Below are positions 1,621-17,440 of a DNA stretch of 21,089 nucleotides, in pieces. The notes under the pieces were generated by a model. The model worked only from the letters and a program-made list of their open reading frames with translations. It did no database searches and was not told the origin of the DNA. The translations under genes and the position numbers were made by a program. Origin of the DNA: a virus. The stretch is from IMG/VR virus record IMGVR_UViG_3300011114_000078, positions 1 to 21,089 of that record; one strand, written 5' to 3'. Within the stretch, counting starts at the first letter, position 1; every line of letters begins with the position of its first letter.

Positions 1621-2577
1621 ATGAACATTATCGAATTTGGAGATTGCAGAGAGACCATGAGGCGTTGGAAAGATGAAGGCATCAAAGCGCAGACTTGCGT
1701 CACCAGCCCACCTTATTACGGATTGCGGGACTACGGACACGAAGGGCAGATTGGTTTAGAAGAAACGCCCGAGGAATACATCAAGGCGATGGTTGAGGTG
1801 TTTCGTTGCGTGTGGGATGTGCTGGAGGACGATGGGACGCTGTGGCTTAACATTGGCGACAGCTACTACAACTACCGGCCCGGCAAAGGGCAAGCATTGG
1901 TTAAGCAATCAGTCGCCAACAATGACCAAGATTTACCGCAGACTTGCGCTAGGTGCGGGAACAAGTTGGACGGACTGAAAGAAAAAGACCTAATCGGCAT
2001 ACCTTGGATGCTGGCGTTTGCCCTCCGCGCCGATGGTTGGTATCTACGCCAAGACATTATTTGGCATAAGCCAAACCCCATGCCTGAGTCGGTGCAAGAC
2101 CGATGCACTAAGGCGCATGAGTACATTTTTCTGATGAGCAAGTCGCAAAAATATTACTACGATGCGGAGGCCATCAAAGAGGCCAGCTCTGACCCAGAAG
2201 GTAGCGCAAACAGGTACAAAGCGCCTTTTTTTGCTGGTGAAAAGCATGAAAGCGGTGGGTATTCAGCCACGGGCGCAACCCACACTAAAGGCATGAAAGA
2301 GTTTGATGGAAATCGTAACAAGCGCAGCGTCTGGACAGTTACCACCAAGCCTTACGCTGGCGCACACTTTGCCGTATTCCCGTCTGACCTGATAGAGCCG
2401 TGCATCATGGCTGGCGCACCAGTAGGCGGGATTGTTCTTGACCCGTTTATGGGCAGCGGAACAACAGCGCAAGTGGCGCAAAACCTTGGTAGGCAATACC
2501 TTGGATGCGAATTGAATCCCGATTACAAGCCTTTGCAAGACAAGCGTCTGGCGCAGCGTTCTTTGGTATTGGAGTAA
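1621..2577 (+). CDS. Orphan DNA methyltransferase, beta class (N4-cytosine or N6-adenine)
   Basis: A 318-residue amino-methyltransferase. The catalytic motif IV TSPPYYGLRDYG (from residue 28) precedes the SAM-binding motif DPFMGSGTT (274-282), the permuted order of class beta enzymes (PF01555 family). SPPY rather than DPPY leans towards N4-cytosine, but phage enzymes with TSPPYYGLRDYG vary in target. A CARC pair (Cys109, Cys112) lies in the middle, where related proteins often carry a small zinc-binding insert; only one CxxC is seen here. No restriction endonuclease is next to it, so it probably protects or marks phage DNA rather than forming a restriction system. No Shine-Dalgarno is evident before the ATG, which follows a terminator by 19 bases, so a promoter must overlap the terminator or reading-through is used. 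The primase gene starts 4 bases after its stop. Confidence 0.88.
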   Translation: MNIIEFGDCRETMRRWKDEGIKAQTCVTSPPYYGLRDYGHEGQIGLEETPEEYIKAMVEVFRCVWDVLEDDGTLWLNIGDSYYNYRPGKGQALVKQSVANNDQDLPQTCARCGNKLDGLKEKDLIGIPWMLAFALRADGWYLRQDIIWHKPNPMPESVQDRCTKAHEYIFLMSKSQKYYYDAEAIKEASSDPEGSANRYKAPFFAGEKHESGGYSATGATHTKGMKEFDGNRNKRSVWTVTTKPYAGAHFAVFPSDLIEPCIMAGAPVGGIVLDPFMGSGTTAQVAQNLGRQYLGCELNPDYKPLQDKRLAQRSLVLE

Positions 2578-2581
2578 AAAA

Positions 2582-4639
2582 ATGGACACTGAAACAATAG
2601 CCAAAGCCCTCGGCAACGCCAAGAAGGTCAACGGGAACTGGCTTGCGAGTTGCCCTGTACCTGGCCACGGCAGAGGCAACGGGGACAAGAACCCGAGTCT
2701 GAGTATCAAGGAAGACAATGGCAAGTACCTGTTCCACTGCCACGGTGGGTGCGATCAAGGGTCAGTATTCGACGCTGTCAGGGAACGCAACCTATTGCCA
2801 AGCATCCAGCGCCAGGAGTACAGTCTTGCGCTCATTAAAGGTGAATTGATGACTATGCCAACGCTGGAGCAGGAGTGGGAGTACAAGGACGAGCAAGGCG
2901 AGACGCTGTTTGTAAAGCGAAGATTCAAGACCAACACCGAGAAGGGTAAGACGTACAGCTTGCACAAGGTGGATGCCGCTGGCAACCGCAAGGGCAGCAT
3001 GACAGGTGCGCGGATAGTGCCTTACCGGCTTCCGGAACTCATCAACGCACGGGAATCTGGACGCGCCATCTATCTGGTGGAAGGTGAGAAGGCAGCGGAT
3101 GCCCTGGTCAGCATTGGCGCCATTGCCACAACGTCGCACGCTGGTGCAAGCCACTGGCCGGCAGACATTACCCAATACTTTGCCGGCGCGGTAGTGATAG
3201 TGGTTCCGGACTGCGACGCACCAGGCTGGAAATACGCCAAGCGGGTGGTGGAGGCGCTCTTACCTGTCGCCAAAGCAATCCGAGTGCTGGACCTGAACCT
3301 ACCGGAACTCGGGGACGATGCCTATGAGTGGGTTGCGGACGGCGGTGACCGAGCCAGGCTGGCAGAACTTGCCAAGGCGCTCCCCGTCATCACCGACATA
3401 GACCAGGTGCAGACGCCAGAGTGGATTGTTCCACGGGAAACGGTTGAGGAAGTGCCTGCGCTACCAGAGGAAGAGCCACCCATCCTAGTCCCACGGCAAC
3501 TGCTCAACATTGAGGCTTGGGATGACATTGAGGACGAGCCGGTGGAGTGGCTGATAGACAGCGTGCTGCCTAAGAAGGCTTTTGCAGCCCTATATGGGCC
3601 GCCAGGGTCATACAAGTCATTTGTTGCCTTGGACATTGCCGAGGCGGTGGCAACTGGCAGGCCGTGGATGGGGCGGGAGGTGCAAGCAGCAGGCGCGGTG
3701 CTGTACATCTGCGGGGAAGGCTTTGGCGGCATCGGCGCACGCATCAAAGCCTGCAAGATGCACAACCGCACGCAAGCTGGCGCCGAAATCTACGTCATCA
3801 GGGCCGCGATAAACCTGAGAAGCAGCGCGGAAGACTTCGATCTGCTGGTGGCCTCCATCAAGGATTTAGTCGAGCGCACCGGAGTCCAGTTTGAGTTGGT
3901 GCAGATTGACACTCTAGCCCGAGCATTTGGCGGTGGAAACGAGAACAACTCAGAGGACATGGGAGCATTCATCCACAACGCCGGCCGAATCCAGCGGATG
4001 CTGAATTGCGCCATGATGGTGTTGCATCACTCGGGTAAGGATGCCACCAAGGGTTTGCGGGGACACTCAAGCCTGCTGGGAGCCGTGGACACCCAGCTGG
4101 AACTGCTGAAGATTGACGTAACACCAAACCCGTCAGGCCCGATAGCTGGAAGCGGCACCCTCACGATCAGCAAACAGAAAGACGGCCTCGATGGCGTGAA
4201 GATAGGCTTTGAGATGGTCAGGGTGGAGATTCAAGGCGGGACGCTAGGAATCAGCGATGCCCAGATCAGCCTGGCGGTGAGAGCCAGCGACGAGGCGCTC
4301 CAGCAGCAGGCAAATGCTAGTGCAATCCAACGCGAAACAAAACCATCGAGGACATTGACGGCAAACCAGAAGATAGGTATGCAGGCGCTGCATCGAGCGA
4401 TTAAGAAGAATGGGCATATGACAAACATTAGAGAGGAGAGCCATAAGACCACATCTGAAGACGAGTGGAAAGAGGAATACGGGACTGTGATGCGTGGGAA
4501 AAGGGGCTGGACAAATTACTTTGATAGGTTGGTTGAGCAACTAGTTGGCAGAGGAGTAGCCGGTAAATTTAACAATGGAGTGGCAACATATGTTTGGGCT
4601 ATATATCCGGATGATGAGCCATTTGCTGCCAAAGATTAA
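2582..4639 (+). CDS. Primase-helicase: CHC2-type zinc domain, Toprim, RepA-like (AAA_25) ATPase
   Basis: A 685-residue replication protein. An N-terminal zinc-ribbon-like site uses Cys24, His29 (CPVPGH) and Cys53/Cys57 (HCHGGC), as in phage primases. A Toprim domain follows, with EGEK (E167) and DCDAPG (D210, D212) as metal-binding acids. After a Pro/Glu-rich linker (about 285-300) a RecA-like hexameric helicase domain carries Walker A GPPGSYKS (339-346), Walker B LVQID (D443) and an HHSGKD motif (482-487). The last 100 residues form a Lys-rich, probably winged-helix tail. It should unwind and prime the phage chromosome; no DNA polymerase is in this window. It starts 4 bases after the methyltransferase stop, so the two are co-transcribed. 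The GTATGCA repeat array begins 9 bases after its stop codon. Confidence 0.9.
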   Translation: MDTETIAKALGNAKKVNGNWLASCPVPGHGRGNGDKNPSLSIKEDNGKYLFHCHGGCDQGSVFDAVRERNLLPSIQRQEYSLALIKGELMTMPTLEQEWEYKDEQGETLFVKRRFKTNTEKGKTYSLHKVDAAGNRKGSMTGARIVPYRLPELINARESGRAIYLVEGEKAADALVSIGAIATTSHAGASHWPADITQYFAGAVVIVVPDCDAPGWKYAKRVVEALLPVAKAIRVLDLNLPELGDDAYEWVADGGDRARLAELAKALPVITDIDQVQTPEWIVPRETVEEVPALPEEEPPILVPRQLLNIEAWDDIEDEPVEWLIDSVLPKKAFAALYGPPGSYKSFVALDIAEAVATGRPWMGREVQAAGAVLYICGEGFGGIGARIKACKMHNRTQAGAEIYVIRAAINLRSSAEDFDLLVASIKDLVERTGVQFELVQIDTLARAFGGGNENNSEDMGAFIHNAGRIQRMLNCAMMVLHHSGKDATKGLRGHSSLLGAVDTQLELLKIDVTPNPSGPIAGSGTLTISKQKDGLDGVKIGFEMVRVEIQGGTLGISDAQISLAVRASDEALQQQANASAIQRETKPSRTLTANQKIGMQALHRAIKKNGHMTNIREESHKTTSEDEWKEEYGTVMRGKRGWTNYFDRLVEQLVGRGVAGKFNNGVATYVWAIYPDDEPFAAKD

Positions 4640-4854: not shown

Positions 4855-4868
4855 ATGAGGGCGTTTTG

Positions 4869-5516
4869 ATGGCATCGAAGAAATTGTTGGAGACTGACGT
4901 TTATCCGAGCGATCGGTTCAAAGTATTTGAGCACTCGCTGATGGTTGAGATGGAACTGGCGAAGATGGAGCATGAGAAGACCTGGGGCATTGACCGAGTG
5001 ATTGACTTGGTGGATGCCGAGTTCCGCAGGAAGTTCAACGCGCAGCGGGAGCGCATTTGGGAGGCCAGCCAGACGCGGGACGAGGAACGATTGGAGAAGG
5101 CCATCAAGGGGATGATTGCGGCCTATAAGGCGCTCACCAGGTGGGCGACTGAGGCAGGCATAGACCAGATGCCTAAAATCGATTGCATGGAACACCGTAT
5201 GGGTGACGGGAGCCTGATGATCATCGTGAGGGATAAGCAGATGGCGACTTGGTACGAGCAGTTTCGTAAAGCGCCAGGCGCACGCTCTATCTGGACACTC
5301 GCGGAACTGGAGGTGGTGATGACGGGTCCGACGCTGACTCAGGTACGCGGGATCAAGGCGGCGATTCCTGGTACGACAATGGTTCCCGTGACGCCGCAAG
5401 GCTCAAGCGGGTTTGAGGAGATGGAGAACGATATCGACATCAGAAAACCGTTCAAGGGTGGCAAGATGTTTGATACGAAGGCAGCAGAAAGGGCTAGGAA
5501 TGAGCGCAGGACGTGA
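4869..5516 (+). CDS. Phage protein of unknown function (215 aa)
   Basis: Not recognised. I start it at ATG 4869 because GAGGG (4857-4861) sits 7 bases upstream; a TTG at 4866 would add one residue only. The first 110 residues are rich in charged helices (AEFRRKFNAQRERIWEASQTRDEER), followed by a more compact part containing RMGDGSLMIIVRD and TWYEQFRKAPG, then a short beta-like stretch and a basic C-terminus. There are no cysteine motifs, membrane segments or known catalytic motifs. It is the first gene after the GTATGCA array and just before terS. A DNA-binding or replication-linked role is conceivable from position alone, but nothing in the protein proves it. Confidence 0.8.
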   Translation: MASKKLLETDVYPSDRFKVFEHSLMVEMELAKMEHEKTWGIDRVIDLVDAEFRRKFNAQRERIWEASQTRDEERLEKAIKGMIAAYKALTRWATEAGIDQMPKIDCMEHRMGDGSLMIIVRDKQMATWYEQFRKAPGARSIWTLAELEVVMTGPTLTQVRGIKAAIPGTTMVPVTPQGSSGFEEMENDIDIRKPFKGGKMFDTKAAERARNERRT

Positions 5517-5566
5517 TTTATGGGACGAGGTGGTATGCAGGGTGCTTGCGGTAACGAAAAACGCTT

Positions 5567-5572
5567 GGAGGG
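5567..5572 (+). promoter_or_regulatory. Ribosome binding site that fixes the terS start
   Basis: GGAGGG lies 7 bases before ATG 5580. The same frame is open from an ATG at 5520, but that start has no comparable site, and the extra 20 residues look unlike a terminase N-terminus. Confidence 0.75.
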
Positions 5573-5579
5573 TCATGTA

Positions 5580-6026
5580 ATGCCTGGGAATCCGAAAGTG
5601 AGAGCAGATATTGCGCTGCTGGAGGACATCGATGACGAGTTGATCCTGTCGATGTTTGAAGAGGGGCGCAGCAAGGCAGACATATGCCGCGGCCTAGGCA
5701 TCGGACGGCGTGCGCTCGATACGTGGATATCGGACAACGACTACGAACCTATAATTACGCGCGCGCGGGTGGAAGCGGCCTCGCATCTCGCTTGCGAGAC
5801 ACTCGCCATTGCGGATGGCATGGACGTGGACAACGGCCAGCGAGACGTGCAGCGCATCCGGACGCGGCAGTGGCTGGCCGAGCGCTGGGATCGGAAGACG
5901 TACGGCACTGACAAGGCGCAGTCGGTGAACATCAGCATCCAAGGTTTGCGTATGGAGGCGCTGCGCCACGTCGAAGTGGTTGAGCAGTTATCCACAGATC
6001 AGATGCCAAAGTTATCCACAGAATGA
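5580..6026 (+). CDS. terS: Terminase small subunit (Sf6 gp1-like)
   Basis: A 148-residue protein. Residues 20-50 form a helix-turn-helix (ELILSMFEEGRS..ICRGLGIGRRALDTWI), the DNA-recognition part of small terminases. The middle (ARVEAASHLACETLAIADG, then DVQRIRTRQWLAERWDRKTYG) matches the oligomerisation core and the conserved WLAxx..KxYG end of Sf6-type subunits. It recognises the packaging site on phage DNA and loads the large subunit, encoded 360 bases downstream. Its last codons contain two of the three DnaA-box 12-mers (encoding QLST and KLST), so this tail is probably constrained by DNA function as well as by protein. In Sf6/P22-type phages the pac site often lies in or near this gene. 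Confidence 0.82.
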   Translation: MPGNPKVRADIALLEDIDDELILSMFEEGRSKADICRGLGIGRRALDTWISDNDYEPIITRARVEAASHLACETLAIADGMDVDNGQRDVQRIRTRQWLAERWDRKTYGTDKAQSVNISIQGLRMEALRHVEVVEQLSTDQMPKLSTE

Positions 6027-6216
6027 GTGCATTTGCTCAAAGATTAAGCAGAAACACGCATAAACACCCTGTTTTCATTCACATAATGGACACTGTATCA
6101 AATACACATTATGGGATTAGTGCAGACGCGCAGCATAATCATCAATGGAATCAACGGGTTACGCATACGATGGCGCAGCGTCAGAGGGGACGCGCAGCGT
6201 GCTGAGTTATCCACAG
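5986..6216 (+). promoter_or_regulatory. Three identical 12-mers with perfect DnaA boxes
   Basis: AGTTATCCACAG occurs at 5986-5997, 6010-6021 and 6205-6216, all in the same orientation; each holds the consensus DnaA box TTATCCACA (5988, 6012, 6207). The first two are 24 bases apart inside the 3' end of terS; the third lies in the following gap. I saw no other copy of the 9-mer in the window. The pattern suggests recruitment of host DnaA at a phage origin, or DnaA-dependent control. Confidence 0.8.
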
Positions 6217-6386
6217 GCTGCAGATCGTTTGTTCGCTGCACGAACTAACCTGGCCGTGGTCGCCCGACCCCCCCCGTGGGGCGCTGGCGGCGGGGCGGTT
6301 GTGGCAGCACCCAAACACCTACCGAGTTGCGATTTCACGCTCCAACTGACCCTCTGACCCCCCTACCCCCCACCTAATTGCGCCCT
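6027..6386 (+). other. 360-bp noncoding region between terS and terL
   Basis: No convincing gene is present; two short open frames here have no ribosome binding site and no recognisable sequence. The first 120 bases are AT-richer than the flanks and contain a dyad (6082-6113). The middle has GACGCGCAGC twice (6125-6134, 6189-6198) with a further GCGCAGC (6173-6179), then the third DnaA 12-mer and a small GTTCG-CTGCA-CGAAC hairpin (6231-6245). The last 120 bases carry C-runs: eight C at 6268-6275, six at 6358-6363 and six at 6366-6371. The composition fits an origin or packaging region, and such gaps are unusual in this tightly packed genome. Confidence 0.7.
6082..6113 (+). repeat. Inverted repeat in the AT-rich part of the terS-terL gap
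   Basis: CATAATG (6082-6088) and TGTAT (6094-6098) pair with ATACACATTATG (6102-6113): 12 bp in total around the loop CAA, with a 5-base bulge (GACAC) on the left arm. There is no downstream T-run. It may be an operator or part of an origin unwinding element. Confidence 0.6.
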
Positions 6387-7814
6387 ATGCCTCCAAAAAA
6401 AAATTTAGCAACTCCCGAGAACCCGTTTATCGAGTTCGCGTTGCGCTACCGGAATGACCCAGTGCTGTTTGTCAGGGAGGTGCTGAACACCGAGCCTGAC
6501 ACTTGGCAAGTAGAGTTCCTGAATCACATTGCGGCTGGCAACCGACGCATCAGCGTACGCTCCGGCCACGGCGTAGGCAAGTCAACGGCCAGCGCCTGGG
6601 CGATGCTCTGGTATCTGTTTTTGCGGTTCCCTGTCAAGATTGTCGTTACAGCGCCGACGTCAAGCCAGCTTTACGACGCCCTGTTCGCGGAACTGAAGCG
6701 GTGGGTTAAGCAGTTGCCGCCCATGCTGCAAGAGCAGTTGGACGTGAAGCAGGACAGGGTCGAGGTGAAGGAGGCTCCCAACGAGGCGTTTATCTCGGCC
6801 AGGACAAGCCGCGCAGAGCAGCCCGAGGCATTGCAAGGTGTTCACTCCGACAACGTCATGCTGGTGGCCGACGAGGCATCCGGCATCCCCGAGGCGGTGT
6901 TCGAAGCCGCAGCAGGCTCAATGTCGGGTCACAAGGCGGTGACGCTGCTGCTGGGGAATCCAGTGCGCTCAACGGGTTTCTTCTATGACACCCACAACCG
7001 GCTGAAGGATGATTGGGTGACGATGAAGGTGAGTTGCGCCGACTCGCCCCGCGTCTCAGAGGCTTACCTGGGCGAGATGGCGGCACGCTACGGCGAGGAG
7101 TCAAATGCCTACCGGATTCGCGTACTTGGCGAGTTCCCGCGCTCAGATGACGATACCGTCATCCCTATGGAGTTGCTGGAGATGGCGCAGCAGCGAGACG
7201 TTGAGCCTAGTCAGTCAGCGCCAATGGTCTGGGGTCTGGACGTCGCCAGGTTTGGGTCGGACCGGTCTGCACTCTGCAAGCGCAAGGGGAACGCGGTGAC
7301 CGAGCCAATCAAGACGTGGAAGAACCTGGACCTGATGCAACTCACCGGCGCGGTGGTGTCCGAGTACGAGTCCCTGCCACCATCCGAGCGACCTACCGAG
7401 ATCCTGGTGGACAGCATCGGCCTTGGCGCGGGAGTGGTTGACCGGCTGCGGGAGCTGAATCTTCCCTGTCGCGGCATCAACGTCTCCGAGAGTCCAGCGA
7501 TGGGCGCGACGTACCGGAATCTGAAGGCTGAGCTATGGCACAAGGCCAAAGCCTGGCTGGAGGGTCGGGACTGCAAGATGCCGAAAGATGAGGCGCTGGT
7601 GGCAGAGTTGGCCATCGTCCGATATTCGTTTACCAGTTCGGGGAAGATTCAGATTGAGGGTAAGGATGAGATTCGCAAGCGCGGGTTCCCGAGTCCGGAC
7701 AGGGCAGACGCCTTTTGCCTGACGTTTGCGTCAGATGCGGTGATCGGAGCATTTGGCGGGGCTAAAGTGTCCTGGAATAAGCCACTGCGCAGGAATCTTC
7801 CGCGAGTAGCATAA
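6387..7814 (+). CDS. terL: Terminase large subunit (packaging ATPase and nuclease)
   Basis: A 475-residue motor protein taken from ATG 6387; a TTG at 6378 is also in frame, and neither has a clear ribosome binding site. The ATPase half has Walker A RSGHGVGKS (58-66), a Walker B strand ending in ADE (VMLVADEAS, D162/E163) and a coupling-type LLGNP segment. The RNase H-like nuclease half has GLDVARFGSDRSAL (D285), ILVDSIGLGAGVVD (D342) and PDRADAFCL (D438/D441), the expected three acidic clusters. It cuts concatemeric DNA and pumps it through the portal. All catalytic residues are present and the length is normal. Confidence 0.95.
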   Translation: MPPKKNLATPENPFIEFALRYRNDPVLFVREVLNTEPDTWQVEFLNHIAAGNRRISVRSGHGVGKSTASAWAMLWYLFLRFPVKIVVTAPTSSQLYDALFAELKRWVKQLPPMLQEQLDVKQDRVEVKEAPNEAFISARTSRAEQPEALQGVHSDNVMLVADEASGIPEAVFEAAAGSMSGHKAVTLLLGNPVRSTGFFYDTHNRLKDDWVTMKVSCADSPRVSEAYLGEMAARYGEESNAYRIRVLGEFPRSDDDTVIPMELLEMAQQRDVEPSQSAPMVWGLDVARFGSDRSALCKRKGNAVTEPIKTWKNLDLMQLTGAVVSEYESLPPSERPTEILVDSIGLGAGVVDRLRELNLPCRGINVSESPAMGATYRNLKAELWHKAKAWLEGRDCKMPKDEALVAELAIVRYSFTSSGKIQIEGKDEIRKRGFPSPDRADAFCLTFASDAVIGAFGGAKVSWNKPLRRNLPRVA

Positions 7815-16735: not shown

Positions 16736-17440
16736 GTGGCTGCATACGGTACAGGCTACTACGGCAAGGGCGTCTATGGCATAGGCAATGTTGTCATCTC
16801 TGGCAACGCCTCCACGCTTGCCATCGGGACACTGCTTGCCAGTAGGTCAATCCAAGAGGATGGGACGGTTGGAACGGGCAATGTCGGAACAGTCGGGCTG
16901 ACTGTATCCATTGCCATCACCGGCAACGCATCCACAGCATCCATTGGCACTGTAGCGCCAAGCACTACAAAGGCATCCACAGGTAACTCGGCCACCTTAT
17001 CGGTTGGCAGCGTCATTCAAAGCGCTGACATAAGCCTGTCAGGTAACAGCGCAACACTCTCGCCAGGTACTGTTACTAACAGCGCAAGCATGGCCTTAAC
17101 AGGCAACGCATCAACCGGATCGGTTGGAACTGTATCCGCTGAAGTCATATCGTTCCAGGCCATCACCGGAGTGAGTGGAACTGGATCAGTTGGTACTGCC
17201 GCAAATGTCATCTCAATTGAGATAATGGGAAATGGCGCGACTGGCACGGTTGGAACAATCATTGGATTCGGTTGGGGTGCGATACCTGACACTTCCGAGT
17301 CATGGAGCGCGATAGCTGATACATCAGAGACGTGGACGGTTATTGCTGACACGTCAGAGAGTTGGACACCGGTATCTGACACCAGTGAAACATGGGCAGA
17401 TATCTCCGATAATGCAACAACGTGGCAAGTGGCCGCATAG
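16736..17440 (+). CDS. Repeat-rich virion protein (234 aa), probably tail or decoration
   Basis: A 234-residue protein starting at GTG, with AAGGAG (16723-16728) 7 bases upstream. After YGTGYYGKGVYGIG it is built from about seven degenerate units of 19-24 residues around (S/T)GN(A/S)(S/A)TxSxGTV (residues 20-180). The last 50 residues are five 10-residue repeats, DTSE(S/T)Wxx(I/V)(A/S). Such GNA-ST-GTV repeats and W-rich end repeats occur in phage virion proteins that form elongated beta structures. Its position between the adaptor group and the tail fibre agrees. Receptor or glycan contact is possible but unproven. Confidence 0.75.
   Translation: MAAYGTGYYGKGVYGIGNVVISGNASTLAIGTLLASRSIQEDGTVGTGNVGTVGLTVSIAITGNASTASIGTVAPSTTKASTGNSATLSVGSVIQSADISLSGNSATLSPGTVTNSASMALTGNASTGSVGTVSAEVISFQAITGVSGTGSVGTAANVISIEIMGNGATGTVGTIIGFGWGAIPDTSESWSAIADTSETWTVIADTSESWTPVSDTSETWADISDNATTWQVAA
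17288..17437 (+). repeat. Five tandem 30-bp repeats encoding DTSExW units
   Basis: In-frame 30-bp units start at 17288, 17318, 17348, 17378 and 17408. The first four encode DTSESW or DTSETW followed by four residues; the last is degenerate (DNATTW). DNA identity between units is only partial while the protein pattern is strict, so selection acts on the protein. Confidence 0.85.

Follow-up and report, generated by a model that had tools for sequence, protein, structure and literature searches.

The window analysed here is an entire IMG/VR virus record of 21,089 bp, a contig of a tailed phage that carries genes for an exonuclease, a methyltransferase, a primase-helicase, an Sf6-like small terminase subunit (terS), a large terminase subunit (terL) and a portal protein of the SU10 type, the last of which, like TerL, matches a phage family. 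The 3' end of terS and the 360-bp gap that separates it from terL hold the features with which we are concerned (Table 1).

Table 1. Features of the replication and packaging region, in window coordinates.
Feature	Position	Strand	Remarks
Primase-helicase of the replication module	2582..4639	+	TOPRIM-like plus AAA_25
216-aa protein, function unassigned	4866..5516	+	encoded after the primase-helicase and before terS; homologues occur alongside the primase-helicase
terS (Sf6-like small terminase)	5520..6026	+	Pfam Sf6_terminase match; boxes 1 and 2 at 3' end
DnaA box 1	5986..5997, 9-mer 5988-5996	+	AGTTATCCACAG; within terS codons Leu-Ser-Thr
DnaA box 2	6010..6021, 9-mer 6012-6020	+	AGTTATCCACAG; final sense codons of terS; 24 bp past box 1
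Candidate unwinding element	6012..6111		100 bp from box 2; lowest 1% of duplex stability (computed)
Element A	6077..6104		conserved ACATAATGG... dyad
IHF-consensus site	6149..6161	+	AATCAACGGGTTA (WATCARNNNNTTR); exact consensus match
DnaA box 3	6205..6216, 9-mer 6207-6215	+	AGTTATCCACAG; intergenic; 195 bp past box 2
C-tract then G-rich block	6268..6299	+	CCCCCCCCGTGGGGCGCTGGCGGCGGGGCGG; conserved before terL
terL (large terminase)	6387..7814	+	matches phage family

A search of both strands of the window finds the 12-mer AGTTATCCACAG exactly three times, always on the + strand, and the perfect DnaA box inside it, TTATCCACA, has no further copy on either strand of the 21,089 bp. Shuffled sequence is expected to contain 0.10 copies of the 9-mer, and none of 100 shuffles got to three. 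The sequence-only reading had described three 12-mers in the same orientation, occurring nowhere else and two of them written into terS codons. The three copies do begin at 5986, 6010 and 6205; their uniqueness is true at zero or one mismatch, the next-best match lying at 16971 with two; and boxes 1 and 2 each read in frame as TTA-TCC-ACA at the 3' end of the terS open reading frame, whose stop codon occupies 6024-6026. Box 3 falls inside the gap.

Several further elements share this short stretch of DNA. A+T content reaches 61% in 6022-6140, and at the same place in five whole relatives the computed duplex stability ranks in the lowest 0.4-1.2% of 100-bp windows. Of 73 relatives, 43 have the IHF consensus in the gap (its background frequency is 0.107 per kb), and about 40% are without a full match. 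Element A consists of two inverted half-sites around a 6-bp centre, takes family forms such as CTTTACATAATGAACATAGTGTAAAG, and recurs at the same place in relatives and in locus L118. Its left half resembles what we take to be the XerD arm of dif, which makes element A a possible XerCD site, for integration or multimer resolution, in phages with no recognised integrase. The general architecture of dif/XerCD sites has been described (PMC5357621). The C-tract and G-rich block possibly mark a packaging or terminus region; such features also occur at 6358-6371 of the window, at position 315 of L117 (L117:315) and in many loci of a distant family, C72C1, to which we return below. The gap has no Rfam match, and the RNA fold of 6255-6390 is not unusual (z = -0.22).

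With TerL as the query, 80 related loci were found in IMG/VR, some 50 of which are 95-98% identical. Nearly all of these close relatives show the spacing of the window, 24 bp from box 1 to box 2 and 195 bp from box 2 to box 3, and the distance from box 3 to terL shifts through insertions and deletions. Some relatives carry TTGTCCACA at box 3, and in some of the close ones box 2 is damaged (TTATCAACA, ATATCCACA). We aligned 61 distinct terS genes on the anchor LRHVEV, the boxes themselves not being used for alignment. At box 1 the codons are TTA in 60 of 61, TCC in 60 of 61 and ACA in all 61, whereas the other near-invariant leucines in the same stretch (positions -29, -5 and 0) are each written with four or five different codons. 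Because the box-1 codons are frozen while those of other invariant leucines vary, the boxes must be under selection as DNA and not as protein. The single loss of box 1 among the 61, in locus L053 (TTGTCAACA), is accompanied by three other perfect TTATCCACA copies in the same gap, in new places and orientations. The sequence-only reading had held that three perfect boxes imply function, had pointed to the terS 3' codons of relatives as the place to look, and had named synonymous, box-destroying changes as evidence to the contrary; what is found is the opposite, a run of codons conserved in 60 or 61 of 61 genes and one loss in a gap that has three other perfect boxes, and the claim of function is strongly supported by both.

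Beyond the close relatives the boxes move. In clade 2, whose TerL is about 86% identical, an inverted TTGTCCACA lies 38 bp past box 1 instead of box 2, and box 3 is found elsewhere. A scan of IMG/VR viral contigs for any pair of TTATCCACA copies 8-30 bp apart, made without gene information, gave at least 80 loci, and those listed include further diverged members of the same family (L307, L347, L352 and L382) with their boxes in the same gap. After a further TerL search we tabulated 135 gaps with element A: TTRTCCACA occurs three times in 95 of them, twice in 31, once in 7 and in 2 not at all. Related sequences are among those counted, and the counts should not be read as independent events; a better measure is how many distinct arrangements there are. 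At least six main ones occur, and they follow the clades of the TerL tree; examples, given relative to element A with the strand as the sign before each number, are +-93 +-69 +126; +-103 --65 +91; +-113 +-81 --55; and +-79 +-49 --24. Across 11 gaps chosen as representatives, which for the most part are 50-60% identical from clade to clade, the most repeated 9-mers are TATCCACAG and TTATCCACA, with a density of 4.32 per kb in the gaps compared to 0.062 per kb elsewhere in the same loci, a difference of about 70-fold. Judged by sequence, then, the TTATCCACA/TTRTCCACA cluster at the terS-terL junction is a real DnaA-box cluster, whose number and place are kept and whose geometry turns over. A large, unnamed and mainly freshwater phage group ("mainly freshwater" being a reading of contig identifiers and organism context, not of sample metadata) keeps about three perfect DnaA boxes between both packaging genes despite their reshuffled places. 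No named phage gave a direct match to the DNA of the junction, and the literature searched, a partial library, describes no DnaA-box cluster of this kind in a tailed phage.

The replication genes upstream of terS give the boxes a context. One relative, G014, assembles as a 35.8-kb circle with the primase-helicase and the 216-aa protein upstream of terS; neither an integrase nor a DNA polymerase nor a known initiator could be recognised in it (open reading frames of at least 80 aa inspected by eye, a subset of them scanned with HMMs), and in its parts L099:7250-20000 and L100:1-8300 there is no recognised integrase. None of the replication genes scanned has a Rep-like Pfam or PHROG match, and the main repeated motif of the gaps is the DnaA box, so the gaps do not qualify as an iteron origin. 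Structure prediction for the 216-aa protein reached a mean pLDDT of 61.6 and gave no PDB match with an E value below 0.29. Its homologues in the C72C1 family (e.g. L178, L173 and L175) have DDEIPF as their last residues, an ending that resembles the C-terminal tip of SSB and suggests a replication-associated role for the 216-aa protein.

The C72C1 family, with a TerL that is 48% identical, permits a comparison between replication modules. Its loci (L119-L198) carry one of two such modules: some have a Rep-like initiator (HTH_36), others relatives of the primase-helicase and the 216-aa protein, with the same terS-terL downstream of the swap. Among distinct gaps, those with the primase-helicase/216-aa module have a perfect box no more than 450 bp from terL in 10 of 22 cases, those with the Rep initiator in none of 20 (Fisher p = 6e-4, ignoring relatedness). 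Some of the box-bearing loci have AAAGTTATCCACAGGC beside an IHF-consensus site. Boxes of this kind are missing from a sister branch whose primase-helicase is related.

We lean towards reading the terS-terL cluster as a replication origin of the phage that depends on host DnaA, and hold this to be slightly better than an even proposition. High-affinity DnaA boxes at the junction, acting in cis, would recruit the host initiator DnaA; DnaA on two or three boxes, together with a bend introduced by IHF, would melt the low-stability DNA next to box 2; at this opened segment the phage primase-helicase would be loaded, perhaps together with the 216-aa protein; and host polymerase would then copy the phage genome. 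DnaA binding, a replication start at the gap and the helicase-loading step are all steps that we infer. This reading is favoured because two or three strong boxes are retained at one place regardless of orientation and spacing, next to an IHF site and a segment of low duplex stability, and because the boxes are linked to a replication module that has no recognised initiator. Three features expected of an origin are found here: a conserved, above-chance cluster of consensus boxes, an easily melted neighbouring segment, by computation, and an IHF site, by consensus match. Of the functions offered by the sequence-only reading, an origin suits the surroundings best.

Known origins resemble this arrangement in part. 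In oriC and the origins of P1, pSC101 and R6K, DnaA boxes occur together with IHF and a weak segment (PMC4980987). P1 oriR, pSC101, R6K and RK2 are like the phage gap in that about 250 bp hold DnaA boxes together with an IHF site and an AT-rich segment of weak duplex; unlike them, the phage gap has neither iterons nor a recognisable Rep, its geometry varies, and it belongs to a tailed phage, in which it is placed between terS and terL. Bacterial oriC likewise has an IHF site and an unwinding element surrounded by consensus boxes (three of high affinity in E. coli), whereas the phage gap has two or three consensus boxes, is not beside dnaA and shows no GC-skew switch. Phage lambda has DnaA boxes near pO and ori-lambda, and thus host DnaA in a phage replication region (PMC3985674), but in lambda the origin is in the charge of the phage protein O and DnaA modulates transcription close to it, and no O-like initiator is recognised here.

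Other observations count against an origin. Cumulative G-C has no origin-like minimum at the boxes, which after detrending lie nearer a maximum, although a switch in GC skew is not strictly required where nearly all genes share one strand. The box geometry is not conserved, and in RK2 inverting one DnaA box abolished replication (PMC4980987). Gaps with no box (2 of 135) or one (7 of 135), the box-free sister branch and the relatives without a full IHF match all weigh in the same direction, and a site between packaging genes would suit a terminus function too.

An alternative is that DnaA regulates transcription of terL and the late genes, so that the phage senses the replication state of its host. 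The boxes do precede terL and the structural operon, DnaA is known to act as a transcription factor (PMC8203912), and alphaproteobacterial phages provide a precedent for the use of a host cell-cycle regulator, with CtrA sites in their gaps or terminal repeats (PMC9437464). That case also resembles ours in that the sites are concentrated in one non-coding region, though the protein differs, and DnaA sites examined in the same phages showed no positional asymmetry (PMC9437464). However, no sigma-70-like promoter or terminator was found in 5900-6420 (non-sigma-70 promoters lie outside that search), and the late promoter proposed by the sequence-only reading fares worse than the origin on this account; the orientation and spacing of the boxes vary freely, which would be unusual for a promoter-bound regulator, and the distance from box 1 to terL differs by more than 100 bp among close relatives. 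We regard the regulator as unlikely.

Packaging is the next explanation to be weighed: the gap would be a cos or pac site or a terminal repeat, and the boxes would have a part in packaging or in the processing of ends, where they might, for instance, mark those that are freshly replicated. Its site between terS and terL and the conserved C-tract and G-rich blocks agree with this, and the same blocks stand before terL in the distant C72C1 family and in Sinorhizobium phage phiM5. In phiM5, whose TerL is 52% identical, a direct terminal repeat of 357 bp is annotated just upstream of terL and includes a C-tract at position 315. By this example the boxes of the present group may lie in a terminal repeat, because the phiM5 repeat sits just upstream of terL, and a genome end may be near the C-tract/G-rich block, since the phiM5 C-tract falls within the repeat. 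DnaA is not known to have a role in packaging, which speaks against this explanation, and IHF does take part in lambda packaging (PMC11868608), which speaks for it. The C-tracts persist in relatives that have no boxes; the two features are thus separable, and we consider it quite improbable that the boxes serve packaging.

Less probable still is titration, in which the three boxes on each of hundreds of phage genomes would sequester DnaA and halt host initiation. A sink would need the number of boxes to be kept as their arrangement turns over, as is seen, and the boxes are of the strongest consensus type. A datA-like site would use DnaA boxes with an IHF site to sequester or inactivate DnaA, and here boxes and an IHF consensus are both present. 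Yet a sink needs no fixed place, the boxes are confined to one short gap by element A and the IHF site instead of being spread over the genome, and relatives with the Rep initiator have none. Recognition of TTATCCACA by a phage or host protein other than DnaA is very improbable, as the motif is the exact DnaA consensus, including the A/G alternative at position 3, and one Paraburkholderia oxyphila copy of AGTTATCCACAG lies between dnaA and rpmH.

If the DnaA-dependent origin is real, a large environmental phage group starts replication with the host initiator and is tied to the DnaA state of its host; it would be a clear phage case of binding-site turnover at conserved number, and would provide a sequence signature for spotting DnaA-dependent phages and predict a testable dependence on DnaA. 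A wider proposal strikes us as doubtful: that a widespread group of tailed phages, so far undescribed and with no initiator, polymerase or integrase that can be recognised, has between terS and terL a control region like those of oriC and plasmids, made up of DnaA boxes, an IHF site, a Xer-like recombination core and a packaging end, and that one 360-bp gap thereby joins host-DnaA replication, host-XerCD multimer resolution or integration, and packaging.

Prophages with the same gap, sought in bacterial genomes for the host and integration site, were not found, nor was a prophage junction for element A. The 12-mer AGTTATCCACAG is rare in the six proteobacterial genomes searched (0-4 copies each), P. 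oxyphila having four. The copy there at dnaA-rpmH fits recognition by DnaA; it does not identify the phage host.

Some minor observations concern the family at large. Relatives circularise at about 35 kb and encode an HTH protein of the Cro/CI type and a small protein that is RuvC-like by eye (G014 = L099:7250-20000 + L100:1-8300). The slot between the SSB-like gene and the primase-helicase holds a methyltransferase of N6/N4 type in the window (1621-2577) and one that by eye looks to be of cytosine type in G014 (L100:3370-4827). Two candidate patterns were rejected. A general rule of two boxes left and one right of element A is true for clades 1 and 2 and fails in the L352 and L307 clades. A fourth TTATCCACA found 2.03 kb upstream in many relatives is taken as coincidence: it is read as TTT ATC CAC A, encoding a conserved Phe-Ile-His-Asn of the primase-helicase, its Phe codon is TTT in 23 cases and TTC in 10, clade 2 is without this box, and the window itself has TTC.
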